Origin: Leisingera sp. JC1
GTDB lineage: Bacteria; Pseudomonadota; Alphaproteobacteria; Rhodobacterales; Rhodobacteraceae
NCBI RefSeq assembly: GCF_001679925.1
Contig: NZ_LYUZ01000105.1
Coordinates: forward strand, 1 to 35,770
Length of the DNA: 35,770 nucleotides
Direction: 5' to 3'
The translations under genes were made by a program, and so were the position numbers. The notes under the pieces were generated by a model. It saw nothing but the letters and a program-made list of their open reading frames with translations. It did no database searches and was not told where the DNA came from. Positions 15,526-30,971 of this stretch are shown in pieces. The stretch's first letter is position 1. Each line of letters starts with the position of its first letter.

Positions 15526-16638
15526 ATGCCATGGAATTGGAAAATGCCCGGGTGGCCAGGCTTTCGGTATGATGCCTCGGCTCTCGAGCCACTGGAACGG
15601 CAATTTCTGCTGTCTTCCGGCGAGATTCTCGGAGCCGTGCATCATGTCAGCCACTCAGAACGCGAGCAACTCCGCATCGAGCTACTTAGCGATGAGGCAA
15701 TGCAAACCAGTGCCATCGAAGGTGAGATTCTGGACCGGCTCAGCGTTCAGTCTTCGCTGCGCCGCCATCTGGGGCTGGCGCCTGACAGCTACCCAGCAAA
15801 GCCGCGGGAGCAAGGTGTCGCCGAGATGATGGTGGACGTCTATTCCAGCTTTGCAGGCCCGCTTTCTCACGAAACACTGTTTCGCTGGCACAATATGCTC
15901 CTGTCCCATGACCGCCGTCTTGAAGCCATCGGCGGCTACAGGCGGCACGCGGAAGCAATGCAAATCGTCTCCGGCCGACTTGACCGGCCGACAGTACATT
16001 TCGAAGCCCTGCCTTCGGGTCAGGTCCTGCGCGAGATGGAACGCTATGTTGGCTGGTTCAATACCACCGGGCCGGACGCTCCTGGGCCGCTCCCTGCCCT
16101 GACCCGGGCCGGGCTGAGCCATCTTTACTTCGAGAGCATTCACCCTTTCGAAGACGGGAACGGCCGTTTGGGCCGCGCCCTGGCCGAAAAATCTTTGGCG
16201 CAGAACCTTGGTCAACCAAGCCTCATTGCCCTTGCCTTCACCATAGAAAGGGAAAGGAGAGCCTATTACGACCAGCTCGAAGTGCACCAAAAAACGCTTG
16301 ATGTAACAGCCTGGCTTGTCTGGTTCGCTGAGATCGTGCTGAAGGCTCAGCAGGTCACACTTGACCGGGTCGGTTTCTTCATCGGCAAGGCGCGCTTCTA
16401 TGACAGGCACCGGGACCATTTGAACAGCCGGCAAGCCAAGGCAATCGCGCGGATGTTCAGAGAAGGCCCCGGAGGTTTCAAAGGCGGGCTGAGTGCTGAG
16501 AAGTACCTCAAGATCACCGGTACATCGCGGGCAACGGCAACCCGGGATCTGCAGGACCTCGTTGAAAAGAGCGCGCTCACCCGTACCGGTGAACGCCGCT
16601 ATACGCGATATTGGTTGAATCTGAACGAAAAGGCCTAG
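15526..16638 (+). CDS. Fic family protein (probable AMPylase)
   Basis: A 370-residue Fic-domain protein with an N-terminal DUF4172-like segment. The catalytic motif is HPFEDGNGRLGR, starting at His206. The self-inhibitory helix TSAIEGE lies upstream, at residues 61-67, as in class II Fic proteins, so activity should be held in check within the protein. A C-terminal winged helix (KITGTSRATATRDLQDL, with ALTRTGERRYTRYW) could bind DNA and repress the gene itself. AGGAAGGA lies upstream of the ATG. Such proteins transfer AMP to hydroxyl groups of target proteins. There is no separate antitoxin next to it. Confidence 0.88.
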   Translation: MPWNWKMPGWPGFRYDASALEPLERQFLLSSGEILGAVHHVSHSEREQLRIELLSDEAMQTSAIEGEILDRLSVQSSLRRHLGLAPDSYPAKPREQGVAEMMVDVYSSFAGPLSHETLFRWHNMLLSHDRRLEAIGGYRRHAEAMQIVSGRLDRPTVHFEALPSGQVLREMERYVGWFNTTGPDAPGPLPALTRAGLSHLYFESIHPFEDGNGRLGRALAEKSLAQNLGQPSLIALAFTIERERRAYYDQLEVHQKTLDVTAWLVWFAEIVLKAQQVTLDRVGFFIGKARFYDRHRDHLNSRQAKAIARMFREGPGGFKGGLSAEKYLKITGTSRATATRDLQDLVEKSALTRTGERRYTRYWLNLNEKA

Positions 16639-17275: not shown

Positions 17276-18442
17276 TTACGGTTGCAGCTGTCTTGTCTGA
17301 TGACCAGCAATGATCCTTGCCAAATATCCATCAGGGTTACGAATGCGACTGGCATTGCCTATCAGGTAATCGAGTGTTTTTAGCAGGTGGGTCCATCCCA
17401 TCGAGGCGATGGCCTTAGCCAAAGTTCTTTCACTCAAAGCAATAAACCTCCCAAGAAGGTAAACCGTTTCTTGAAGCTGTGACAGAGATTTAGGAATGTC
17501 GGGGAAGAAGGTAGATACATTTTCGAGTGAGAACCAAATGTCGGAGGCATCCTCGGTGCGCACAAAATCCTGTTTGTTGGCTTTAGTTTCTTTTTTTATT
17601 TCTATTTTGTATGTTTCTACTTGGCGGACATTTCGACCGTCTGCGCCGGACATACTAATAGTTTTGGTAACTTGGCTAGAAGATACCGTGTCCTCAGAAC
17701 GAAGTTCTTCGACCGTTGGGTTTGCTTTCGAAATGTTATCAGGTGAGCTGGACCGATTAGGGTAGGGGGCCTCCTTGGCAATTTCCAATAGCTGATGATG
17801 AACAGCACGGACGCCCTCCACTCCGAGCGTTACTCGCCGTAAGATCGTTTTGGCTCCTTCGACAACATCTATGGAGGCTTTGCCCAGTGTGTCGGCGCGG
17901 CGAAGGAGTTCTGCCCGCAGAGCCAATGCCTGTGCCCGCAGGCCGCGGATCTCTTCTTCTTCCGCTTTGATCTGCCGAGCCAGGCGGATAATCCGGTCCG
18001 CGGCCAACAGTAGCGGAGAAATGTCGATGCCATAGGCATCAATAATCTTTCCGCTTGCCCTAATTGGGAAACGCTTCCCAGTAGCGCTGTCTTTGCGTCT
18101 GACCAAACCAGCAGCCACGAGGCGATCGATATTTCGGCGAAGCTTCCGATCGCCCATACCATTTGCACGCTCGCAAATGGCGGCATTAGACGCAAATATG
18201 ACAAGCAGCATCTCGTGCGCTACAGGAACTTCTGCGCCGGTCATTTGGTCCTGGCAGGGTAGGAAGCTGAGAAGCGTCGCTAGGACGGAAACATTGGTGT
18301 CTGTCAGGCCCAAGCGTTTGCGCGCGATTTTGAGTGCAAGCAAAAGATCCTTGCGCAGAACTGGACGGAATTCTGCTGCTTGAGTTCGGGCACAATCCAA
18401 GTGTGCCCCGGCACGGGGTGCCGCGGTCATTTTGGTTTCCAT
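17276..18442 (-). CDS. repC: RepC replication initiator
   Basis: A 388-residue RepC, the initiator of repABC plasmids, acting at an origin inside its own gene. The N-terminal part (about 27-150, RKDLLLALKIARKRLGLTDT through NAAICERANGMGDRKLRRNI) is the winged-helix DNA-binding domain. A coiled coil follows at about 165-200, and the C-terminal region contains SERTLAKAIASMGW. METKMTA offers a second ATG at 18430; neither has a strong ribosome site, in keeping with control by antisense RNA. The long gap upstream carries that RNA and a parS site. Confidence 0.9.
   Translation of the reverse strand: METKMTAAPRAGAHLDCARTQAAEFRPVLRKDLLLALKIARKRLGLTDTNVSVLATLLSFLPCQDQMTGAEVPVAHEMLLVIFASNAAICERANGMGDRKLRRNIDRLVAAGLVRRKDSATGKRFPIRASGKIIDAYGIDISPLLLAADRIIRLARQIKAEEEEIRGLRAQALALRAELLRRADTLGKASIDVVEGAKTILRRVTLGVEGVRAVHHQLLEIAKEAPYPNRSSSPDNISKANPTVEELRSEDTVSSSQVTKTISMSGADGRNVRQVETYKIEIKKETKANKQDFVRTEDASDIWFSLENVSTFFPDIPKSLSQLQETVYLLGRFIALSERTLAKAIASMGWTHLLKTLDYLIGNASRIRNPDGYLARIIAGHQTRQLQP
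17581..17620. other. oriV: AT-rich stretch inside repC, candidate oriV
   Basis: Forty bases are nearly all A or T within an otherwise mixed gene (TTTCTTTTTTTATTTCTATT and onward). RepABC origins lie in an AT-rich part of repC, so this is the likely melting site. It is a placement by composition only. Confidence 0.45.
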
Positions 18443-18514
18443 GTCGTTTCAGACGGCAAAAAGAAACCGTTCACCGAATTCGGTGTTGCAGTGATTCGAT
18501 TTTGGAGGTACCAA

Positions 18515-18576
18515 GTAAGTGTCTAAGTTACAGGGACCCTCTGATAAGCTTCACCGCTGTCGGGGGGTTTCTTTTT
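18515..18576 (+). ncRNA. Candidate antisense RNA (ctRNA) of the repABC replicon
   Basis: RepABC operons carry a short RNA on the opposite strand between repB and repC that limits RepC. Here the plus strand of that gap ends in a strong terminator: ACCCTCTGATA pairs with TGTCGGGGGGT (18536-18567, with a few G-U pairs) around an 11-nt loop, then TTTCTTTTT. The RNA's 5' end is a guess from a weak promoter (TTGCAG near 18486, about 17 bp before TACCAA). A length near 60 nt fits known ctRNAs. Confidence 0.6.
18536..18576 (+). terminator. Terminator of the antisense RNA
   Basis: An eleven-pair stem including G-U pairs, loop AGCTTCACCGC, and the tail TTTCTTTTT. The hairpin would also form in the repABC leader on the other strand. 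Confidence 0.65.
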
Positions 18577-18618
18577 ACGCTCTGTCTGCCTCCTTGTGTT
18601 TCTGCTCGCTTTCATTAA

Positions 18619-18634
18619 GTTGGCCACGGACAAC
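18619..18634. promoter_or_regulatory. parS: parS-like centromere site 3, between repB and repC
   Basis: GTTGGCCACGGACAAC matches sites 1 and 2 with one arm mismatch. A palindrome in the repB-repC gap is common in repABC operons. Confidence 0.6.
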
Positions 18635-18681
18635 CTAATGAAAACAATTACTTAGCGCATTTTCCACTTTTTCAAACACGC

Positions 18682-19644
18682 CTATGTTCTAGTTTGGGTC
18701 CATTCTGAAAAAATCGTTTCAAGGTTTTCTTCAAGGAACCGAATGAATGCCTTACTGGACTTGTCGGCCTGTATTGTGATGCGGGCTTCCTTCGCTTTGA
18801 AGCTGACAGCGCCTCCGGAGATCTCTCCGCTCTGAGTAGGGGAGGGGGGGCGGCGAGCCGGTTGGCTGCCCTGGATCGCTTCAGCCTTCTGCATCGCCTT
18901 TATCAGGGCGATGAGGCGCTCGTTTGCATTAGTACAGCTTGATGGGATCATCTCGAGGATTGCGCCCTCTCCGAAACCGTTTTCGAGGGTCACCAGACGT
19001 CTCAGCTCATACCAAGGTCGGCGCCCGGAATCCCGGGCGGGTCCGATTGCACGGATCACAGAAGCCGGAACATCGCGTACAACGCTGATGAGCTTGCTGA
19101 GAGTGCCTTTGTCGACAACCAATGCTTCACAGATGTCCTGCCGGGTGAAACCTGCTTGCTCTAACTTGGCAGCAAAAACAGCTTGCTCAATAAAGCTACG
19201 CTGCAAGCGGGCTGAGTTTTCAAGCGCTTGAGATTTCAGGGCTTCCCGGAGATCCATATCCTTGATGAAGGCCTTGACCTTGATGCCAAGGGCGCGGCAT
19301 GCGGCAATTCGGCGGCGACCATAAACCACTTCGTATCGCGGTCCATCGCCACGGCGGTAACGCACGAGGACCGGAAGCTCTTGGCCGGAGTCCCGAATGG
19401 ATTCGACCAGGTCATCGAGGCCGTCCTGCACATCGAAGCGGTCAGCAATCTCGGAGTCAGCAATCTCGGAAACATCGATTTCCTGCGCTGATTGCGATGC
19501 AACCTGCGTCAGTACATCCGACATGTTTTTTAGCGACTTCGGCGCACCTTCTTTAGAAGGTGTAGGTGATGCCGCTGTAGAGTTATCTGCCGGTTTTTTC
19601 TCAGCCATTTGCTGTAGGCTTCTGGCAAGTAAATCACGCTTCAT
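18682..19644 (-). CDS. repB: RepB plasmid partition protein
   Basis: A 320-residue ParB-family protein of the RepABC system that binds parS. The ParB N-domain has VVYGRRRIAACRALGIKVKA and ALENSARLQRSFIEQAVFA; the helix-turn-helix follows at about 165-190 (FTRQDICEALVVDKGTLSKL). The N-terminus contains a tandem copy of DSEIA, encoded by a perfect 15-bp direct duplication at 19441-19470. It overlaps repA by 11 bp, as usual in these operons. Confidence 0.92.
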   Translation of the reverse strand: MKRDLLARSLQQMAEKKPADNSTAASPTPSKEGAPKSLKNMSDVLTQVASQSAQEIDVSEIADSEIADRFDVQDGLDDLVESIRDSGQELPVLVRYRRGDGPRYEVVYGRRRIAACRALGIKVKAFIKDMDLREALKSQALENSARLQRSFIEQAVFAAKLEQAGFTRQDICEALVVDKGTLSKLISVVRDVPASVIRAIGPARDSGRRPWYELRRLVTLENGFGEGAILEMIPSSCTNANERLIALIKAMQKAEAIQGSQPARRPPSPTQSGEISGGAVSFKAKEARITIQADKSSKAFIRFLEENLETIFSEWTQTRT

Positions 19645-20836
19645 CGTCTACCTCCCGTCCCCAGGCTGTCTGGATCTTGCGTTCGATATCGTCGGCAACG
19701 CCGATTATGGATTCGATTGCCCGGTCATATGTTTTTCTGTTTTTTGAACCACTTAAGTCGACCTCAAAAACAGTCTTTTGAGCGAGCCCTGCGTCACTGA
19801 CCGCAGAAGATTTCACGAACGGGGTCGGGATAACGCTGCTACCTAGGATTTCTTTAATCCATTCCGCAAGGTCTTGTTGAGCACTAATGGAGGTGTCGAA
19901 ACGGGTCAGCAAGTAAGTGAAGTTATCATACGCTCCGATACCCCCATTTGAATGGAGGACCTCAAGGACGCCCGACGCCATGTCCAGAAACTGGCTGGCA
20001 GATGCCAAATCGACCCGTTCCGGAATGATGGTCATGAGAAGGGAAGTCGAAGCGCAGACCGCCGACATGGTGAGATACCCGAGCTGAGGCGGGCAATCGA
20101 TCATCACAATATCATATTCATCCTCAACCTGGCGAAGCGCATCCCGGATTCGGTTGAAGAAGACTGGTTGCTCGCCACGACTCAATGCCGTAGGGGTTTC
20201 GGTTTCGAATTCAGACAGCATGATACCGCCAGGAACTAAATCCAGATTGGGAAAGTAGGACTTCCGCAGGACTTCTGTGATTGGAACGCGGTTTGTCTCG
20301 CCATCATTGTAACGGATGGCATCGTAGAGCGTCCCACCATGCCGGAAATCTAACTCAGGCTGGTAGCCAAAGAAGGTTGTGAGTGAAGCTTGCGGATCGG
20401 CATCGATAGCAAGGACTCTATATCCCCGAAGGGCCAAGCGCTGTACTAGATGTGCGGAAGTGGTCGTTTTACTGGACCCGCCCTTAAAATTTACTGTGGA
20501 CCAGATTTGGAGTTTGTCACCATCACGCCGACCCGGCAAAAAATGCAACGGATCCTTGGCATTTTGCGCAAGGATCTTCCTAATTTCGAGTATGTCTTCT
20601 GCGGTATAGGACCGTTTGTTACCAGGGCCTTGCTCGACCTCTGGTAGCTTGCCATCGAAATGAGACTTCCGGAGGTATCCGTCACTCACCCGAAGCAGAT
20701 GAGCCACCTCTGAGGAGGAGAACGTCCTGAGGTGTTTCTCTTCTTTAGGTGCTAGGAACAGCTTCGACATGGCGTCGAGTGCTTCCGAGAGCCTGCTGGC
20801 GTCCGCTCGAAGCTTGCTGTGCAATACTGCGTCCAT
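19634..20836 (-). CDS. repA: RepA plasmid partition ATPase
   Basis: A ParA-type ATPase of the RepABC system that drives plasmid segregation and represses the operon. An N-terminal DNA-binding part (FSSSEVAHLLRVSDGYLRK) precedes the Walker A motif FKGGSSKTTTSAHLVQRL, then AIDADPQASLTTFFG and MIDCPPQLG. I prefer ATG 20836 (400 residues); a GTG at 20896 would add 20 residues, rich in Lys and Gly. Neither start has a clear ribosome site. The upstream start would place two direct repeats inside the gene. Confidence 0.9.
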   Translation of the reverse strand: MDAVLHSKLRADASRLSEALDAMSKLFLAPKEEKHLRTFSSSEVAHLLRVSDGYLRKSHFDGKLPEVEQGPGNKRSYTAEDILEIRKILAQNAKDPLHFLPGRRDGDKLQIWSTVNFKGGSSKTTTSAHLVQRLALRGYRVLAIDADPQASLTTFFGYQPELDFRHGGTLYDAIRYNDGETNRVPITEVLRKSYFPNLDLVPGGIMLSEFETETPTALSRGEQPVFFNRIRDALRQVEDEYDIVMIDCPPQLGYLTMSAVCASTSLLMTIIPERVDLASASQFLDMASGVLEVLHSNGGIGAYDNFTYLLTRFDTSISAQQDLAEWIKEILGSSVIPTPFVKSSAVSDAGLAQKTVFEVDLSGSKNRKTYDRAIESIIGVADDIERKIQTAWGREVDDEA

Positions 20837-20837
20837 A

Positions 20838-20880
20838 GTTACTGCCCGTTTTTTGACCTTCTTAGTTCCGTTACTGCCCG
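20838..20880. promoter_or_regulatory. Direct repeats in front of repA
   Basis: GTTACTGCCCG occurs at 20838-20848 and again at 20870-20880, a 32-bp step of about three helical turns. If repA starts at 20836 they lie in its leader and may be RepA operators. Confidence 0.4.
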
Positions 20881-20896
20881 GTACGGGCTGATCCAC

Positions 20897-22929: not shown

Positions 22930-25446
22930 ATGGATACCTGGGTTGTCATCTCCTTCATTGCCGTGCTGTTCTTCCTGATCGGCACGGCGGAGCCTTTGGC
23001 CGCGCGGCTGCGGCTGCCGTACAGCGCCATCATTGCCGTGATCGGCATCGTGCTGGGCCTTGGCGCCAGCTTCTTTTTGCGCACCGAACTGACCGATGCG
23101 CTCAACCCCGTGGCGGAGGCGATCCTGGGGCTTCCGATCCAGGCCGAGATCTTTATCTATGTTTTCCTGCCGACCCTGCTGTTCCAGGCCACCATCGGAA
23201 TGGACCTGCGCGAGATGGTCGGTGACGGCGTGCCCATCATCGTTCTGGCGGTGATCGCCGTTGTGGCGGCGACCGGGCTGGTGGGCTATTCGCTGCACTG
23301 GGCGAGCAGCCTGCCGCTGACCGCCTGCCTGCTGGTCGGCTCCATCGTCTCGACCACCGACCCGTCGGCGGTGGTCAGCATCTTCCGCTCGATTGCCGCG
23401 CCACAGCGCCTGACCCGGATCGTCGAAGGCGAAAGCCTGCTGAACGATGCGGCGGCAATTGCGCTGTTTGGCCTGTTCCTCGGCTTCGTGATGGTCGGCG
23501 TTCCCGATCCCTCGATGCAGGAGGCGCTGGCTGGCTTTCCAATGCTGATCCTGGGCGGCGCGCTGACCGGCTGGCTGGCAACAAGGGCGGCGGTCTGGGT
23601 CATGAGCCTGTTTGCGGATTTTATACTGGCGCAGCTGTCGGTTTCGGTCGCCTTGCCCTATCTGGCCTATGTCATTGCCGAGCAGGTGCTGGGCGCCTCC
23701 GGGGTCATTGCGGTGGTGGCGGCGGGGCTGTCGCTGCATCTGGCGGCGCCGGGGCGGCTGACGCCGCAAGCCTGGACCAAGCTGTGCGAGAGCTGGGACC
23801 TGCTGGCGCATTGGGCGGGGGCGATGATCTTTGTGCTGGCGGCGCTGTTCATCCCGCGCCTGCTGCAGGAAATCCGGCTGACGGATTTCGGCCTGATTCT
23901 GGTGGTGATCGCGGCCGCCGTCGCGGCCCGCGCGCTGATCCTGTTTGTGCTGATGCCGGCACTGAGCTGGTCGCGGCTGTCGCCTGCCATCGACCGCAGC
24001 TACCGCGCAGCCATCCTGTGGGGCGGCCTGCGGGGGGCGCTGACGCTGGCGCTGGCGCTTGCGGTGACCGAAAACGCGCTGATCCCGCATGAGACCAAGC
24101 GCCTTGTTGGCATTCTCGCCACCGGCTTCGTCATGTTCACCCTGCTGGTTCAGGGCACGACCCTGCGCTGGGTGGTCGGCCGGCTCGGGCTGGACCGGCT
24201 CTCTGCCTTTGATGCGGCGCTGTCGCAGCAGGCGGTTGCGGTCGCACTGCAGACCGTGCGCGAAGAAGTGGCCGGCGTCACCCAAAGCTACCGGCTGAAC
24301 CATGAAACCGTGCGCGACGAGGCCAAGCAGTTCGGCACCTGGCTGGACGAGGCGGTGCGGGCGGCGGAGGAAACCACCGGCATTCTGGACAAGGACCGGG
24401 TCAAGCTGGGGCTGATTTCGCTGGCCGCGGCGGAGCGCGAAGCGGCGCTGCGCCAGCTGCGGGAGCGGCTGATTTCCGCCCGCGTGACGGAGCAGCTGAT
24501 CACCGGTGCCGACCGGCTGATCGAAGCCGTCCGGACCCAGGGCCGCTCCGGCTACCGCAGGCGTGCGCGGGGCATGCTGGCCTATGGCCGCGGCTTCCGC
24601 CTGGCACTGGCGCTGCACAACCGCCTGCGGGTGCCGGTGCTGCTGGACAGGCTGACGGCGGACCGGTTTGAATACATGCTGGCGCAGCGGGTCATTCTTG
24701 GCGACCTTGGCGCCTTTGTCGACAGCCGCATCCGCCGGATTCACGGAAAACGCGTGGCCCAGCTGCTGCACGGGATGCTGGCCCGGCGGTCGGAAGCGCT
24801 GGAGGCGGCCCTGGAGGGGCTGCGGCTGCAGTATCCCGGCTATGCCGAAGAGCTGGAGCGGCTGTTCATCCGGCGCGCGGCGCTGCGGTTTGAGGAGCGC
24901 GAGTACCGGACCCTGCATGAAGACGGGCTGATCGGCACCGAAGTGCTGACGGCCCTGCTGCAGGACCTGCTTGCCCGCCGGGCGCAGCTGGACAGCCGCC
25001 CGCGGCTGGACGTGGCGGTGCAGCGCACCGAGCTGATCCGCAGGCTTCCCTTCTTCGAAGCGCTGGACCGGCGCAGCCGCCGGCAGCTCCTGCGCAGCCT
25101 GAAGACCGTCCATGTCAATGCAGGCGGCCAGCTGCCGGACCAGGGCACCGGCAGCGTCTATTTCATCGCCTCCGGCGCGCTGGAGCTCAGGCGGGCAGGC
25201 CGGGTGACCCGGCTGGGGCGGGGCGACATGTTCGGCCATGCCGCGTTGCTGACCCCCGGTGCCCGCTTAGCCCAGGCGCAGGCCCGCGCCATCGCTCCGT
25301 CTGTGCTGCTGGAACTGCGCGAGACGGAGTTCCGCAAGCTGCTGGACCGCAGCGAGGCCTTGCGGGAGGCCGTGCAGGCGAGCCTGAGCGGTCAGAGGCC
25401 CGGCCCGGTTTTCCTGCCTGGCGCCGTTCAGAACCCGGCGGACTGA
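22930..25446 (+). CDS. CPA1 Na+/H+ antiporter with a cyclic-nucleotide-binding-like C-terminus
   Basis: An 838-residue antiporter. The first ~410 residues hold about 12 membrane segments with the CPA1 marks TTDPSAVVS (142-150) and GESLLNDAAAIALF, in which Asn172-Asp173 should carry ion exchange. A long cytosolic helical region follows, then a C-terminal beta roll from about 700 (FFEALDRRSRRQLLRSL, FIASGALELRRAGRVTRLGR). The layout is that of NhaP and SOS1-type antiporters. The ligand loop reads FGHAALLTPGARLAQAQ; the usual Glu is His, so binding of a cyclic nucleotide is doubtful. A cyclase and Crp gene lie nearby, so signalling links are tempting but unproved. Confidence 0.88.
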   Translation: MDTWVVISFIAVLFFLIGTAEPLAARLRLPYSAIIAVIGIVLGLGASFFLRTELTDALNPVAEAILGLPIQAEIFIYVFLPTLLFQATIGMDLREMVGDGVPIIVLAVIAVVAATGLVGYSLHWASSLPLTACLLVGSIVSTTDPSAVVSIFRSIAAPQRLTRIVEGESLLNDAAAIALFGLFLGFVMVGVPDPSMQEALAGFPMLILGGALTGWLATRAAVWVMSLFADFILAQLSVSVALPYLAYVIAEQVLGASGVIAVVAAGLSLHLAAPGRLTPQAWTKLCESWDLLAHWAGAMIFVLAALFIPRLLQEIRLTDFGLILVVIAAAVAARALILFVLMPALSWSRLSPAIDRSYRAAILWGGLRGALTLALALAVTENALIPHETKRLVGILATGFVMFTLLVQGTTLRWVVGRLGLDRLSAFDAALSQQAVAVALQTVREEVAGVTQSYRLNHETVRDEAKQFGTWLDEAVRAAEETTGILDKDRVKLGLISLAAAEREAALRQLRERLISARVTEQLITGADRLIEAVRTQGRSGYRRRARGMLAYGRGFRLALALHNRLRVPVLLDRLTADRFEYMLAQRVILGDLGAFVDSRIRRIHGKRVAQLLHGMLARRSEALEAALEGLRLQYPGYAEELERLFIRRAALRFEEREYRTLHEDGLIGTEVLTALLQDLLARRAQLDSRPRLDVAVQRTELIRRLPFFEALDRRSRRQLLRSLKTVHVNAGGQLPDQGTGSVYFIASGALELRRAGRVTRLGRGDMFGHAALLTPGARLAQAQARAIAPSVLLELRETEFRKLLDRSEALREAVQASLSGQRPGPVFLPGAVQNPAD

Positions 25447-25677: not shown

Positions 25678-26250
25678 ATGGCTAAGACCAAATACATTAT
25701 CGATACCGATATTCAGGCCAAGGCGAAGGTCACGATCATTGATCATGCCAAGCTGCAAAAGATGAGGAAGGGGGAGAAAGGCGTCCTGTTCGGAAAGCAC
25801 TCGCCGGATTTGAAGCTGATGAACGCCAGTTTCGAATGGGATATGGACGGGAAGACCAAGAAAGCCGTCGGCCTGTCTTCGGTCACCCTGTCGATCCGCT
25901 ACACCGGCCAGATCTACCTAAGCAAAGCCATAGATAAGAAATCCAAGTGCTTTTCCCTGGTCAAGGCGCATGAGGAGGAGCACCAGAAGATCTGCGTCAA
26001 GGGCGTCAAGGCGATGAATTCCGCCTGCCAGAAGATCCTGCAGAAACACACCGATGCGATGCTGCGCAAGTACAAGGGCGATTATGACGCCTTTGCCCAG
26101 GCCGAGGCGAAAGCCGCCCGGAAGGTGGCGATCGATGCCTACAAGGAAATCGATGACGGGCCGTTCTACAAGGTCGCCGTCAAGAGCCTGTCGATCGACA
26201 CCGCATCGAATTACGCCAAGATCTCGCCCCACTGCTCGCAATTCGGGTGA
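25678..26250 (+). CDS. Small HExxH protein (DUF922-like putative zinc protease)
   Basis: A 190-residue protein with HEEEH at 98-102 in LVKAHEEEHQKICVKGVKA, followed by a long helical stretch. A short beta-rich half precedes it (SFEWDMDGKTKKAVGLSSVT, LSIRYTGQIYL). The pattern of a beta region and HE-x2-H helix recalls the DUF922 family of predicted Zn-dependent proteases, but those are exported and this has no signal peptide. GGAG precedes the ATG; a longer upstream frame is not supported. It is convergent with the LysM gene. Either an intracellular peptidase or a cargo protein is possible. I did not identify further catalytic residues. Confidence 0.65.
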   Translation: MAKTKYIIDTDIQAKAKVTIIDHAKLQKMRKGEKGVLFGKHSPDLKLMNASFEWDMDGKTKKAVGLSSVTLSIRYTGQIYLSKAIDKKSKCFSLVKAHEEEHQKICVKGVKAMNSACQKILQKHTDAMLRKYKGDYDAFAQAEAKAARKVAIDAYKEIDDGPFYKVAVKSLSIDTASNYAKISPHCSQFG

Positions 26251-26344
26251 GGGTGCAGAGGACCGCGCCCGCGGCTGAGGGAGCCTGATGATGACCGGCC
26301 ATTCCGGCGGAACGCCGTGACCGGCCTGCAAAGCCTGGGAACGG

Positions 26345-27679
26345 TCATTCCCAGGTCTTGGCCTTCAGCCCCTTCCTGACCTCGGCGCGCAGTTCGCCCT
26401 CGATTTTCTTCACGTTGCTTCTGCAGAAGGTCTCGAAGGCCATATCAGTTACCGGATCGCGCTGCAGTAACTTGGCAATGCGTTCCCCAAGTTTTTTCTG
26501 GTCCATTTTCCCTTTGAGCGTGGTGGCATTCTGTTCGAGATACATGTGAACAGGTCTGCGACTGCTGTCAGACAGCAGGATCTTTTGGAGAATTTTGCTG
26601 GTTCCGCTGACGCCAGACCGCACGAACAGCTTGACCAGGACTTTGCTGGCGAGTTCCTTGTAAGCTTGCGAGGAAAACCGCTTCACCACGTTCTCGCCAA
26701 GCGCTTTAATCTCCTGCTCCAAGAGGCGGTCGGTCAATTTAGGTATCAGGGGCGATTTCGAGATCAGCCTCGTCGCCAATCTTGCTGCGACTCTGTTGCG
26801 GAGGATGTATTCAGCCAGTTTGGGAGCGACATATCCGCTGATGAACCTCGCAATAGTTGCGCCCGCACCGCCGGCGATTCCGCCCCGGAGCATGGCTTTG
26901 CCGATAGCCTTTGCTGAGCTCTTGTTGGTCACCGGGTCGCCAGCGATTACCTTGCCGATCTGGTTTGCACTCTCGGCAATGACCGCCGTGCCGGCGCCGA
27001 TTCCGGTGCCCCAGGCAACTGTCGCCACAGCGGTGGCCGGAGCGGCAAGGGTCATCGCCGCGGCGCCGAATATGACGAAATTGATGTCTCGCACGAGGGA
27101 AAGGCCGGTTTTCCAGCCTTCGGCGGTGCCAACCACATCACTGAGCCAGTTGCCGAGACCGGTGCGGTACATGTTGATCTGCTTTTCAGCAAGCTTCATG
27201 CTGAATTCGAAGTGCTTGTAATCCCGCCTTTTGACGGTTTTTTCCAGGTTGGCGACAGCGCCGTTGGCCATCGCCTGCAAGGCCACCGGGCCGTCGCCGG
27301 ACCGGATCAGGAACGAGATGATGAAATGCTCGTCGTCCAGGTCGTTTTGCATTTTGTGCCGGTATTTGGCGCTGTCCAGCTCCCGCTTCATCCGCTTCAG
27401 GCTCAGGTCCATGGCCCTGTTCAGCGCCGCTGTGGACTGCTTCCATTCCTTTTCGGACAGCGGGTACTGCTTGTTGCCGACCTTCATGACATAGCATTTC
27501 GCCTTTGGGTCCGGCGTATGCACGACCATGCCTTTCTTGAGCGGCTGCTTTTTCCGGTACGCCGCCGCCGCGGGTTTGTTCTTGGGGTGCTGGAGGAGGA
27601 CTTTCAGGTCCTTGACCTTGTACTTCTTTGCAATATCCTCGAGCGTTTCGCTTTCCTTGACTTTGTGCTGAATCCACAT
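26345..27679 (-). CDS. LysM-domain protein with a hydrophobic glycine-rich core
   Basis: A 444-residue protein with an N-terminal LysM-like domain at about 3-56 (HKVKESETLEDIAKKYKV to GMVVHTPD). A Lys/Arg-rich helical region follows, then a hydrophobic, Gly/Ala-rich zone at about 205-290 (FVIFGAAAMTLAAPATAVAT, GIGAGTAVIAES, GGIAGGAGATIARFISGYV). The C-terminus is basic and helical. There is no signal peptide. AAGGAG lies 7 bases before the ATG. LysM with a membrane-active-looking core and no signal peptide is a design seen in proteins delivered by contractile injection or type VI machines, but no such machine is in this window. Expression is probably governed by the Crp-like site 88 bp upstream. 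Confidence 0.7.
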   Translation of the reverse strand: MWIQHKVKESETLEDIAKKYKVKDLKVLLQHPKNKPAAAAYRKKQPLKKGMVVHTPDPKAKCYVMKVGNKQYPLSEKEWKQSTAALNRAMDLSLKRMKRELDSAKYRHKMQNDLDDEHFIISFLIRSGDGPVALQAMANGAVANLEKTVKRRDYKHFEFSMKLAEKQINMYRTGLGNWLSDVVGTAEGWKTGLSLVRDINFVIFGAAAMTLAAPATAVATVAWGTGIGAGTAVIAESANQIGKVIAGDPVTNKSSAKAIGKAMLRGGIAGGAGATIARFISGYVAPKLAEYILRNRVAARLATRLISKSPLIPKLTDRLLEQEIKALGENVVKRFSSQAYKELASKVLVKLFVRSGVSGTSKILQKILLSDSSRRPVHMYLEQNATTLKGKMDQKKLGERIAKLLQRDPVTDMAFETFCRSNVKKIEGELRAEVRKGLKAKTWE

Positions 27680-27766
27680 GACCGGGCTCCTTCCGCCGGC
27701 GGCTGACCGCTCTGCGGTACAGGAGGCCGCCGGGTCCGCAGTCTAGCCCCTTGGCGGCCGCGGGCC

Positions 27767-27782
27767 TGTGACGCGCGTCACA
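27767..27782. promoter_or_regulatory. Perfect Crp-type operator upstream of the LysM gene
   Basis: TGTGACGCGCGTCACA fits the E. coli Crp consensus TGTGA-N6-TCACA exactly. It lies 88 bp before the LysM start and 25 bp beyond the end of the Crp-like gene, the natural candidate to bind it. Binding is inferred. Confidence 0.65.
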
Positions 27783-27807
27783 GCGCGGGCATATGCGGAG
27801 AAGGGCG

Positions 27808-28500
27808 TCAGCCCGCCGCGGCAATTCTTGCCAGCCCGGCCGGGTCCAGAAGGATGATCCAGCCGTCAGCCAGGCCGATCAATCCCGCCTTCTGCCATTT
27901 GCGCAGGCAGCGGTTCACGTTCTCCCGCGATCCGCCGATCATGTCTGCGATCTCGGATTGCGACTGGGCCAGCCGTTTTGCCGGCCTGGCGCCGCCGCCG
28001 GACGCCAGGCGCAGCAGGGTCCGGGCCAGCCGGGGCGGCAGCTGGAGAAAGGCGATTTCCATCATCCGTTCGTCCGAGCGGCGCATCCGCGCGCACAGCA
28101 GTTCGATCAGCCTGACGGCCAGGTCCGGAGCGGTCTGCAGGACTTGCAGAAAGGCGTGCCGTTCGAGAATGAGCAGCGTGCAATTGGTCAGGGCATGCGC
28201 GTCTGCGCTGCGCCCGCCGCCGTCCAGCAGGGCGATTTCGCCGAAGACGTCGCCCTGGTTGAGATCGGTCAGGACGACATCGCGTGCGGTGGGCGCCATC
28301 GCGCTGATCCGCACGGTGCCGCGGGCGATCGCCATCATGCTGTCGCCTGGCGAGCCGCAGCGGAAGATCTGCGCGCCGGCCTCATGCCGGCGCAGATGCG
28401 CGCGGGCGGCCAGGCCGTGCAGCACCGTCCTGTCGAGCCCGGCAAACAGGGCGCTTTGTGCCAGCAGCGCAGCTTTGGCGGCGAGGCTTTCCTCCGTCAT
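27808..28500 (-). CDS. Crp/Fnr-family regulator
   Basis: About 230 residues with an N-terminal cyclic-nucleotide-binding fold (20-130). The ligand cassette is FGEIALLDGGGRSADAHA with the Glu and Arg that contact cNMP in Crp, so nucleotide binding is plausible. A dimerisation helix (VRLIELLCARMRRSDERMM) and the C-terminal winged helix with SQSEIADMIGGSRENVNRCL follow. No cysteines of Fnr type are present. I chose ATG 28500 over the GTG at 28509; neither has a strong ribosome site. It is divergent from the FecR-cyclase operon and upstream of LysM on the same strand. Confidence 0.9.
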   Translation of the reverse strand: MTEESLAAKAALLAQSALFAGLDRTVLHGLAARAHLRRHEAGAQIFRCGSPGDSMMAIARGTVRISAMAPTARDVVLTDLNQGDVFGEIALLDGGGRSADAHALTNCTLLILERHAFLQVLQTAPDLAVRLIELLCARMRRSDERMMEIAFLQLPPRLARTLLRLASGGGARPAKRLAQSQSEIADMIGGSRENVNRCLRKWQKAGLIGLADGWIILLDPAGLARIAAAG

Positions 28501-28632
28501 GGTCGTCACAATCCGCGTTTGGCGCCGGAAATCCGGCGATTCCGCATTTCATTTGGTCATCCCCTAAAACTAGGCCATTATGGGCATCTGATCATCATGC
28601 TGAAGCGGTCTTGGCGAAAACGCGGGGGGTGC

Positions 28633-29157
28633 ATGTTGAGGAAAGCGTTTCTGATTTTTGCCAGTGCTCTGGCTGCTGCCGTTGCGGTGAGCAGCGCAGC
28701 TGTGGGCCAGCAGGGTGGGTCCTGCCAAACAACCGAAGCGAGCGATCCGCCGCGGGTCATTCTGAGCTGCGCGAACGGGCTGGTCATTGAGGCGGAAGCC
28801 CCGGGCGCAGGCGCATCCGGATTCCGGCTGCCGGCCCTGCAGGCGCCGCCCGTGTCGGTCGATGTGACCAGCCGGGGCGTGTTGGTCACGCTGCCGCCCG
28901 GCAAGGGGCCATTTCAGATCATGACCCCGCACGCCATCGTTTCGGCGCGCGGCACCCTGTTCGTTGTGGACGTCACTGCAGCCGGCACGGCGGTTTTCGT
29001 CGTTGAAGGGCTGGTCGAAGTGCGCCGCCTGGATGGCAGCGATCCGGTGGAGCTGGGCGGGAGCGACGGGGTCACGGTGTCGGCGGGAACGCCGATGGAG
29101 GTGAAGCAATGGCCCGCTGAGAAGGTTTCGGCACTCCTGATGCGCTTTGGGCGATGA
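28633..29157 (+). CDS. FecR-domain exported protein
   Basis: A 174-residue protein with a signal peptide (MLRKAFLIFASALAAAVAVS, probable cleavage near AVG-QQ). The FecR-type beta repeats read FQIMTPHAIVSARGTLFVVD and AVFVVEGLVEVRRLDG. FecR domains are periplasmic sensors or scaffolds. It overlaps the CHASE2-cyclase gene by 4 bp (ATGA), so the two are made together, and the periplasmic part may act with the CHASE2 sensor of the cyclase. The frame extends far upstream, but that part is antisense to the Crp gene and not supported. Confidence 0.8.
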   Translation: MLRKAFLIFASALAAAVAVSSAAVGQQGGSCQTTEASDPPRVILSCANGLVIEAEAPGAGASGFRLPALQAPPVSVDVTSRGVLVTLPPGKGPFQIMTPHAIVSARGTLFVVDVTAAGTAVFVVEGLVEVRRLDGSDPVELGGSDGVTVSAGTPMEVKQWPAEKVSALLMRFGR

Positions 29158-30971
29158 AGTCGCGGCTGCCGCTTTGGGCTGCAGCGGCGGCGGTGATCGC
29201 CGCCTGGGCCTGGGCCGGGCTGCTGGGGGTTCACCATATCGCGGGGCGCGCCAGCGCCCTGGACCGGGCCGAGGCGGTGTTCGCCGACTGGCGGCTGCTG
29301 ATCGCCGGGCCGCGCCCCGCGCCCCGGGACGTGACGGTTGTTGCGCTGGATGATGCCACCGTGGCGGCGGCCGGCGGATACCCGGTCAGCCGCAGGGCGC
29401 TGGCGGAGCTGGTCCGCGCGATTGCAGCGGGCGGCGCCAGGATGGTGGCGCTGGACCTGCTGCTGGCCGACGGGACCGAAGCTGACGGCGAGCTGGCGCG
29501 GGCATTGGAGAGCCTTCCGGCGGTGATCGCGTCAGCCGGGCTGTTCGGCCCGGACGAAGCCGGCCGGTCGGCGGTGCCGAAGACCTCCGGTGAAATCAGG
29601 CCGCGGCCGGAGTTTGCCGCCGCCGCCTCGGTGGGGCTTGCCAATATCTCGGCCGATGCAGGCGGCACGCCGCGGCACCTGCCATTGGTGTTCGAAACTA
29701 GTGAAGGCCTTGCCCCGTCCTTTGTCCTGCAGGCGGTTTCGCTGTTCCTCGGCGATGCCGTGCCGCTGGTGCCAGGCGGCGCGCGGGTGGCGGGGGAGGT
29801 CCGGCCGATGGACATCGCCTGGCATCTGCCGCTCCGGTACTACGGGGCGCGCGGCACGGTCAGGACAGTCAGCGCGCAGGCGCTCTTGGACGGGGCGGAA
29901 GCCGGCCTGGACGGGCAGCTGGTGCTGCTGGGGGCGACGGCAACTGCGGTCGGCGACCGTTTCAGCGTGCCCTTTGACCAGGTCATGCCGGGGGTCGAGA
30001 TTCTGGCGACCGGCATTGCCAATTTGCTGCACGGCTCTCAGCTGGTGCGCGACGGCCGGGTGCGGCGGCTGGATGCGGCGGCCACGCTGGCGCTGGCGGC
30101 CTGCGGCGTTCTGGCGGTATCGCTGCTGCCGCTGGCGGCGGGAAGCACGGTTTTCCTGGGCCTGCTGGCGGGTTGGGCTGCTGCGGCCGCGCTCCTCTTC
30201 GGCAATGGCTACTGGTTCAGCCTGGCGCTGCCGCTTGCCGGTGCGGTGCCGCCGGTTTTGTGCCTGGTTCTGGTGCGCCAGATGTTCGACCGGAGGCAGG
30301 CCAAGCTGCAGGTGATGGCCCGGCAGGCCCTGGGCCTGTTTCACGCTCCGGCTCTGTCCCGCCGGATTGCAGATGATCCGGCCTTTCTCAAATCGCCGCG
30401 CGCGCAGGACGCCGCGATCATGTTCGTCGATCTGGGCGGGTTTACCGGCACCTCCGAGCGCCTCGGGCCGGCCGCGACCCGCGACCTGCTGAAGGAGTTT
30501 CACCAGCTTGTCGTGGAGGAAGCCGACCGGCTGGGCGGCGTTGTGCTGGATTTCATGGGCGACGGCGCCATGATCGGCTTTGGCATTCCGGACCCGGGGG
30601 CGGAGGATGCGGAGCAGGCGCTGCGGGCAAGCTTCGGCCTGGCAAGCCGTATCCGGTCCTGGATTGCGGATTCGCCGGAATGCGCAAGCCTGAAGGGAAT
30701 GCGGGTGGGGGTGCATTGCGGCCCAATCATCCTGTCGCGGCTGGGTCATGAACGGCAGCAGCAGATTTCGGCCTCCGGCGATTGCGTGAATGTGGCCAGC
30801 CGCCTCATGGAGGTCGGAAAAGCGCATGGGGCGGCGATCACCGCGTCGTCCCGCCTGCTGTCGCGTGCAGGCCGGACGGCGGCAGACCTGCCCCGGCCGG
30901 ATGTGACGAAGCCGGTCGAGATCCGGGGGCGCCGCGGAGACATCGAAGTTGTAATGTGGATGCCGGCCTAG
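29154..30971 (+). CDS. CHASE2 domain-containing nucleotide cyclase
   Basis: A 605-residue membrane signalling enzyme. An N-terminal membrane segment is followed by the extracellular CHASE2 sensor (about 30-290, with VTVVALDDATVAAAGGYPVS), three membrane helices at about 300-385, and the class III cyclase domain at about 410-600. Metal aspartates are in MFVDLGGFTG and FMGDGAMIGFG; the transition-state region is SASGDCVNVASRLMEV. The position usually held by the adenine-selecting lysine, three before GD, is Asp (LDFMGD), so nucleotide choice or activity is uncertain. It is translationally coupled to the FecR gene. Product is probably cAMP or cGMP for the Crp-type regulator. Confidence 0.88.
   Translation: MKSRLPLWAAAAAVIAAWAWAGLLGVHHIAGRASALDRAEAVFADWRLLIAGPRPAPRDVTVVALDDATVAAAGGYPVSRRALAELVRAIAAGGARMVALDLLLADGTEADGELARALESLPAVIASAGLFGPDEAGRSAVPKTSGEIRPRPEFAAAASVGLANISADAGGTPRHLPLVFETSEGLAPSFVLQAVSLFLGDAVPLVPGGARVAGEVRPMDIAWHLPLRYYGARGTVRTVSAQALLDGAEAGLDGQLVLLGATATAVGDRFSVPFDQVMPGVEILATGIANLLHGSQLVRDGRVRRLDAAATLALAACGVLAVSLLPLAAGSTVFLGLLAGWAAAAALLFGNGYWFSLALPLAGAVPPVLCLVLVRQMFDRRQAKLQVMARQALGLFHAPALSRRIADDPAFLKSPRAQDAAIMFVDLGGFTGTSERLGPAATRDLLKEFHQLVVEEADRLGGVVLDFMGDGAMIGFGIPDPGAEDAEQALRASFGLASRIRSWIADSPECASLKGMRVGVHCGPIILSRLGHERQQQISASGDCVNVASRLMEVGKAHGAAITASSRLLSRAGRTAADLPRPDVTKPVEIRGRRGDIEVVMWMPA

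Follow-up and report, generated by a model that had tools for sequence, protein, structure and literature searches.

A Leisingera plasmid cassette combining a FecR, CHASE2-cyclase and Crp-type signalling trio with a LysM-headed candidate type VI cargo

Background

The window analysed here is the whole 35,770-base contig C105 (NZ_LYUZ01000105.1), part of the 5.19-Mb draft genome of Leisingera sp. JC1, and its subject is a block of five genes encoding an HExxH protein, a LysM-headed protein, a Crp/Fnr-family regulator, a FecR-domain protein and a CHASE2-linked class III nucleotide cyclase. An initial annotation, made from the letters alone, had proposed that these neighbours form one functional unit belonging to an undescribed system. 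All five genes are present as it had placed them, beside repABC, and the set is a Leisingera plasmid arrangement rather than a conserved module. The explanation that we prefer, and hold about as probable as not, is a plasmid cassette of two loosely coupled parts, namely the signalling trio (FecR, CHASE2-cyclase and Crp) and a Crp-controlled LysM cargo of a type VI secretion system, with the HExxH protein as a passenger. New in this is the LysM half as a candidate cargo of a TssCL-type machine; the signalling half adds a member to an arrangement already known.

In the mechanism that we propose, a periplasmic FecR protein and the CHASE2-cyclase would be made from one operon, with the Crp-type regulator divergent from it. 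Cues at the envelope or surface would act through FecR and CHASE2 to raise the cytoplasmic level of a cyclic nucleotide, which the Crp protein would bind, as the domains and the precedent of Sinorhizobium meliloti suggest. The loaded Crp-type protein, most simply the neighbouring one, would then bind the palindrome TGTGACGCGCGTCACA and switch on the LysM gene. The LysM protein, finally, would be a cargo of a type VI system with a long TssCL sheath protein, its head docking on the spike and being exchangeable for PG_binding_1 in sister proteins, and its variable helical C-terminal part presumably acting as payload.

Results and discussion

The LysM protein, its family and the link to type VI secretion

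The LysM-headed gene (26345..27679, minus strand) encodes a protein of 444 aa with a weak Pfam LysM match (E 0.031, 14.6 bits against a cut-off of 20.9). Residues 1-110 were modelled with block pLDDT values of 73-89, and their order strand-helix-helix-strand resembles LysM by eye, while the C-terminal part is helical and matched no Pfam family above its cut-off. No signal peptide was seen by eye. The description of this protein as pore-like is weaker than proposed, since it depends on a single stretch of moderate hydrophobicity (residues 201-221, Kyte-Doolittle 1.85) where the model is unreliable. A single-sequence search returned 4 homologues, and a profile built with the sister proteins from the genus returned 35, of which 4 are LysM-headed and 17 have PG_binding_1 (PF01471) as a precomputed label, most of the others being likewise of about 550 aa. 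Judged from these similarities, the LysM protein is one of a roseobacter family whose genes stand alone and whose members are headed by LysM or PG_binding_1. A chromosomal sister is found in 19 of 21 Leisingera genomes (one copy cut by a contig end); the one in the own genome (548 aa) is flanked by an aminotransferase gene and hisC (names assigned by eye), with gaps of 170 and 122 bp. Two Leisingera genomes, G256 and G257, have extra PG_binding_1-family members (about 500-528 aa) elsewhere (loci L027/L030, L012/L028 and L013/L029).

The occurrence of this family follows that of a particular type VI sheath gene. In a sample of 248 genomes of the bacterial family, the family profile matches 10 and VipB, the type VI sheath family, is present in 58, among them 9 of the 10 family-positive genomes (Fisher p 1e-5, kinship ignored). 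A second VipB match, in a frame of more than 1,000 aa, which 19 of the 248 genomes possess, occurs in 9/10 family-positive genomes versus 10/238 others (p ~1e-10, again ignoring kinship), and in 8/9 versus 10/238 when the own genome is excluded (p 1e-9). Among the 58 VipB-positive genomes the family is found in 9/19 with the long frame versus 0/39 without it (p 9e-6), and only one of the 190 VipB-negative genomes has the family. Genomes were assigned to these VipB and frame-length classes by hand from the search table; TssCL itself was inspected in the own genome, where Pfam identifies VipA and VipB (L147), and in G092, where the first part of the open reading frame (ORF) was read by eye (L149), and the other 17 were classed by frame length. 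In the own genome the long ORF encodes 1,677 aa with VipA and VipB, is clustered with PAAR and ClpV-like genes (L147, contig C107) and matches the published roseobacter TssCL of 1,684 aa (PMC9515649). The search for contractile injection genes that had been recommended thus gave a clear result, type VI sheath genes being present in 20 of the 21 Leisingera genomes, the own genome included; G238, the sole Leisingera genome without VipB, is also without the family. A 261-aa Ion_trans channel-like gene directly precedes the 1,677-aa VipA-VipB ORF (L147:12503-18314), and L149 has a 283-aa gene in that place.

The papers cited here were available in part, and statements about them hold for those parts. 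LysM and PG_binding_1 are among six head domains reported to help in loading type VI effectors (PMC10673891), and a LysM region has been described in Tae17 (PMC11796386). Among the matches listed from the literature on LysM type VI effectors, roseobacter type VI effectors and TssCL, the available text names no such LysM/PG_binding_1 family. With moderate confidence, cargo of a TssCL-type machine is the best single reading of the LysM protein, its delivery and toxicity being what we infer from these parallels.

Exchange of the C-terminal part between strains

Comparison of the window genome with ANG59, another genome that carries the cassette, revealed low synonymous divergence (dS) in the HExxH (0.06), Crp (0.02) and FecR (0.07) genes and in the first 300 codons of the cyclase gene (0.08). 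In the LysM gene of the same pair, dS is 0.10 for codons 1-130 and 0.79 for codons 131 to the end, and DNA identity is again 96% in the spacer past the gene. Since the step from 0.10 to 0.79 is confined to codons 131 to the end, we conclude from the alignments that some 310 terminal codons of the LysM gene were replaced by a distant allele between strains, its neighbours being unaffected. The chromosomal sister gives dS values of 0.17 and 0.11 for the corresponding parts in the same two genomes, and no such step was present in seven other sister pairs; the nonsynonymous divergence (dN) of the sister is 0.006-0.034 over the eight pairs compared. The three LysM alleles diverge most at about alignment columns 281-360.

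A Crp-type operator ahead of the LysM gene

The palindrome TGTGACGCGCGTCACA (27767..27782) is a perfect Crp-type site in the spacer that separates the end of crp from the LysM gene, 103 bp ahead of the LysM ATG. It had been called a perfect Crp operator, and its occurrence does exceed chance, TGTGA-N6-TCACA being seen once in the window versus 0.02 expected. The whole 5.19-Mb genome holds this pattern in 4 places and the reversed control pattern in none; the other three sites lie near genes that, by eye, encode a ribosome hibernation-type protein, a membrane-fusion-type protein and a sigma factor. The other three cassette genomes have the palindrome too, but its conservation proves little because nearly the whole spacer is identical (99%) in the two genomes in which it was aligned.

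More informative is a survey in which the 350 bp upstream of family members and of other ORFs in the same stretches were searched for sites with at most one mismatch. Such a site precedes 4 of 17 family members from other genera versus 2 of 117 control ORFs (p 0.002), one of the four, at -79 of the Ruegeria spongiae PG_binding_1 sister gene (L005:16204-16219), being perfect. Two Leisingera sisters share one site at an identical place. The family may, as far as sequence can tell, be under Crp-type control more widely than by the neighbouring trio.

The signalling trio is of a known kind

The Crp/Fnr-family regulator (27808..28509, minus strand; 233 aa, GTG start) matches cNMP_binding (E 2e-19) and HTH_Crp_2 (E 6e-17) in Pfam, and its recognition helix SRENVNR is close to the SRETVNK of the Crp/Fnr-family chain 4byy. 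On the opposite strand follow the genes for the FecR-domain protein (28633..29157, plus strand; 174 aa, FecR E 3e-6, with a hydrophobic N-terminus resembling a signal peptide) and for the CHASE2-cyclase (29154..30971, plus strand; 605 aa, CHASE2 E 4e-41, Guanylate_cyc E 3e-15). The divergence of a cNMP-binding Crp protein from the other two genes had been recognised correctly, and the latter, described as translationally coupled, overlap in ATGA.

To place this trio, 28 non-window CHASE2-cyclase loci were compared, 22 from a class-wide search and 6 from a plasmid collection. The class-wide search covered 385 Alphaproteobacteria genomes, of which 21 (own included) had a match at E 1e-30, with at most three candidates scored per genome; the plasmid loci are six of the eight best outside Leisingera, H15 and H16 being left out. 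A FecR gene lies upstream on the same strand as the cyclase in 26 of these 28 loci, so that the proposed linkage of FecR and CHASE2-cyclase holds well beyond the window. Crp stands beside the pair in 3/28 (Paroceanicella, Methylobacterium and L087), a count that may miss cases because the flank was only 1.5 kb in 22/28 loci. Locus L087 has a divergent Crp/FecR layout like that of the window, with a one-mismatch site, TGTGACATGGTTCATA, between the genes. In the fecR start regions, Crp-type sites with at most one mismatch occur in 6 of 26 loci versus 0.22 expected from base shuffles (one region being short), and four of these six loci belong to one genus. Neither LysM nor HExxH was found in the 14 FecR-cyclase loci searched for both.

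The claim that the system is undescribed does not hold for this half, which resembles a trio already published for S. meliloti (PMC5498481, as far as its available text goes). A literature search, largely outside subscription journals, yielded cases that pair CHASE2 with FecR in S. meliloti, Campylobacterota and Burkholderia. Because of these precedents the signalling trio is of a known kind, and the FecR/CHASE2-cyclase pair is widespread in Alphaproteobacteria. Pycsar defence was also considered and rejected, as PADLOC matches to PycC are confined to the cyclase domain and the adjacent cNMP-binding protein is a helix-turn-helix regulator, with no TIR or membrane effector.

A cyclase clade without the base-selecting lysine

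The window cyclase reads LDFMGD, with Asp466 at the position of a base-selecting Lys which, we presume, usually selects adenine. In the other Leisingera cyclases, DKY or DKH stands ahead of xGD in all 25 compared. Instead of the Lys, the window cyclase and 14 relatives (L069-L074, L085-L092) have D, T, N, S, G, Q or H, and these 15 Lys-less cyclases constitute one clade with support 98/98. The Sinorhizobium CHASE2 cyclases L094 and L095 kept the Lys, as did 12 of the remaining 14 loci (L096-L109), L103 having Asp and L105 not covering the position. With L103 included, a single origin of the Lys loss is compatible with the tree, as are several origins. On these residues, the clade may signal with a nucleotide other than cAMP.

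The HExxH protein

The HExxH gene (25678..26250, plus strand) encodes 190 aa with HEEEH at residues 98-102. The motif residues (H98, E99 and H102) and four cysteines are invariant in 15/15 homologues. Membership in the zinc proteases is weaker than proposed, the match to DUF922 (E 0.044, 14.3 bits versus a cut-off of 27) falling below its threshold. The structure was modelled with high confidence (pLDDT 95), none of the solved structures is a conspicuous match to it, and no signal peptide was seen by eye.

Every whole genome with the HExxH gene (5 Leisingera and 1 Ruegeria) also has the LysM/PG_binding_1 family. Within Leisingera the suggested co-occurrence with the LysM gene stands, as all 4 LysM genomes are among the 5 HExxH genomes (p 8e-4, 21 genomes), and both HExxH genomes of the 248-genome sample, the own genome and R. 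spongiae, carry the family (p 1.5e-3); elsewhere, however, the genes occur apart. In the stretches around 16 other family members no HExxH match was found. The HExxH protein is 99% identical between the window genome and ANG59 despite the replaced C-terminal part of the LysM protein, and in L. methylohalidivorans its gene adjoins prophage terminase and portal genes (L068:9170-12415), on the strand opposite to the head genes. Because of this prophage location and the lack of change alongside the payload exchange, we regard the HExxH gene not as a dedicated or fixed partner, but as a separate mobile passenger that is possibly accessory to the cargo family; its link to LysM is weak.

Conservation of the five-gene set

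The full-length LysM gene and a close cyclase homologue occur in the same 4 of 21 Leisingera genomes. The order exchanger, HExxH, LysM, Crp, FecR, cyclase is kept in all four of these cassette genomes, in one of which, ANG59, the cyclase frame is interrupted by TGA. A copy of the block next to repABC is carried by plasmids of L. caerulea S216 (172,919 bp) and L. thetidis BMJM1 (109,966 bp). Conservation of gene order across genomes is thus limited to this small set. LysM-headed homologues from three other genera (L134, L137 and L144; 24-29% identical) showed no tblastn match to the other four proteins within ~5 kb, and in R. spongiae a distance of 5.8 kb separates the HExxH gene from a PG_binding_1 sister of the LysM gene, with no trio gene matched nearby. 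A gene order limited to 4/21 Leisingera genomes, together with LysM and HExxH homologues that are found apart from the cyclase genes (in these genera, in the L. methylohalidivorans prophage and in R. spongiae), is what the initial annotation had said would refute it, and the notion of one functional unit of five genes is not supported.

Weighing of the alternatives

Several observations weigh against a cassette made of the trio and a Crp-controlled type VI cargo. The cassette is so rare (4 genomes) that co-selection of trio and LysM gene cannot be demonstrated. The 1,000-aa threshold was set after viewing the data, and the p values ignore the shared ancestry of genera; genome G027 (L131-L135) has five family matches, with no VipB and no TssK found, and Leisingera G259 has VipB without a family match. 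In the available text of PMC10673891, PG_binding_1 at vgrG loci is reported from Gammaproteobacteria only. The LysM gene is not at a vgrG locus and has crp and the HExxH gene as neighbours, with no immunity gene adjoining, and the gaps around the own-genome sister leave no room for such a gene, making a classic antibacterial effector-immunity pair unlikely. As for the operator, 13 of the 17 family members from other genera and 13 of the 15 Leisingera sisters, that of the own genome included, have no site with at most one mismatch upstream, and the perfect site in R. spongiae, without the trio nearby, implies that another Crp-type protein may serve these sites.

Accordingly, the five genes might be a chance plasmid neighbourhood, in which the trio regulates elsewhere, LysM and HExxH are separate insertions and the palindrome answers another Crp-type protein or belongs to another unit. 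The HExxH and LysM homologues away from the trio, the 14 FecR-cyclase loci lacking both, the Ruegeria site and an IS240-type transposase just past the cyclase gene would all fit such a history. We nevertheless judge it rather unlikely, given the position of the operator near the LysM start, the excess of sites at family members over control ORFs and an order that is identical in four genomes, two of them with complete plasmids differing in length. To a similar degree improbable, in our judgement, is that the LysM/PG_binding_1 family is associated with the envelope or peptidoglycan and has no type VI role, its link to TssCL reflecting the shared ancestry of a roseobacter subclade. Its members are solo genes, one of them at a core chromosome position, the low dN and near-universal presence of that chromosomal sister in Leisingera would suit such a role, and G027 manages without detectable type VI genes; a peptidoglycan binder without a visible signal peptide would, however, need another export route, and the near absence of the family from genomes that have VipB without the long frame or no VipB at all speaks against a purely envelope-related function. 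Quite doubtful, finally, is the initial suggestion that LysM and HExxH are effector and partner, the latter as immunity protein or processing protease. Their convergent adjacency in all four cassette genomes, their co-occurrence and the 5.8-kb distance in R. spongiae speak for it, but HExxH remained nearly identical while the LysM C-terminal part was replaced and so does not track the payload, and its prophage location and absence around other family members point the same way.

The cassette of trio and cargo can also be taken further. TssCL systems might have a dedicated, immunity-less family of stand-alone cargo with a LysM or PG_binding_1 head and a payload that recombines between strains, of which one copy was captured by a plasmid and brought under an envelope-sensing circuit whose cyclase, from the clade without the adenine-selecting Lys, possibly makes a nucleotide other than cAMP. 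This fuller version is speculative and we consider it unlikely to be right in all its parts.

Relation to known systems

In S. meliloti, Clr (SMc02175), CyaD1 (SMc02176), the FecR protein SMc02177 and the target smc02178 are encoded close together, the locus numbers of the first three being adjacent (PMC5498481), and the CHASE2 cyclases answer an outside signal via an outer-membrane protein (PMC5498481, PMC13001267). The window shares with this cascade a CHASE2 domain fused to a class III cyclase, an adjoining FecR gene and an adjoining Crp regulator, and its palindrome ahead of the nearby LysM gene parallels the Clr-driven target genes next door. It differs in its candidate target, a LysM-headed, cargo-like protein on a plasmid, and in its operator, TGTGA-N6-TCACA, which is unlike the published Clr box. 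It is further set apart by a cyclase without the base-selecting Lys that is usual among the cyclases compared here (CyaD1 itself not being one of them). FecR-CHASE2 cyclase clusters of Campylobacterota (PMC9239204) and the Burkholderia BiofilmReg operon, in which a LysM+FecR protein accompanies a CHASE2 histidine kinase (PMC5192318), likewise pair a FecR protein with a CHASE2 sensor; their partners are a phosphodiesterase and a TPR protein, or a response regulator, no Crp neighbour is named in the available text, and in Burkholderia LysM is fused to FecR, unlike the separate genes of the window.

Type VI effectors headed by LysM or PG_binding_1, Tae17 among them, have this domain ahead of a different C-terminal part (PMC10673891, PMC11796386), an arrangement that the window protein, with its weakly matched LysM-like head, resembles. 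The effectors of PMC10673891 are encoded at vgrG loci, LysM mostly being joined to lysozyme-like, NlpD or NlpC/P60 partners, whereas the present family consists of solo genes with a helical C-terminal part. TssCL machines are found in squid-associated and other roseobacters, and the available text of the paper describing them names no tested cargo (PMC9515649); it gives 39 database-based effector predictions for one strain, which possibly overlap with the LysM/PG_binding_1 family. A family that tracks the TssCL machine, with two interchangeable published loading heads and a swapped payload half, provides a short and testable list of candidate cargo. The cassette suggests how, on a plasmid, control by envelope signals could be extended to such cargo, and the clade of FecR-linked cyclases without the base-selecting Lys makes the identity of the cyclic nucleotide directly testable.

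Neighbouring genes

The cassette adjoins the plasmid replication and partition genes repA, repB and repC (17276..20896, minus strand). A gene for a Fic family protein (DUF4172 and Fic) lies at 15526-16638; the plasmids of L. caerulea and L. thetidis also have annotated Fic genes. On its other side from the cyclase, the cassette adjoins a gene for a Na+/H+ exchanger with a C-terminal cNMP_binding domain (22930..25446, plus strand; Pfam), which accompanies the cassette in each of the four genomes, although only part of it is matched in ANG59 and the L. thetidis match is spread over several frames. From its domains, the exchanger may be a second reader, or direct target, of the same cyclic nucleotide.

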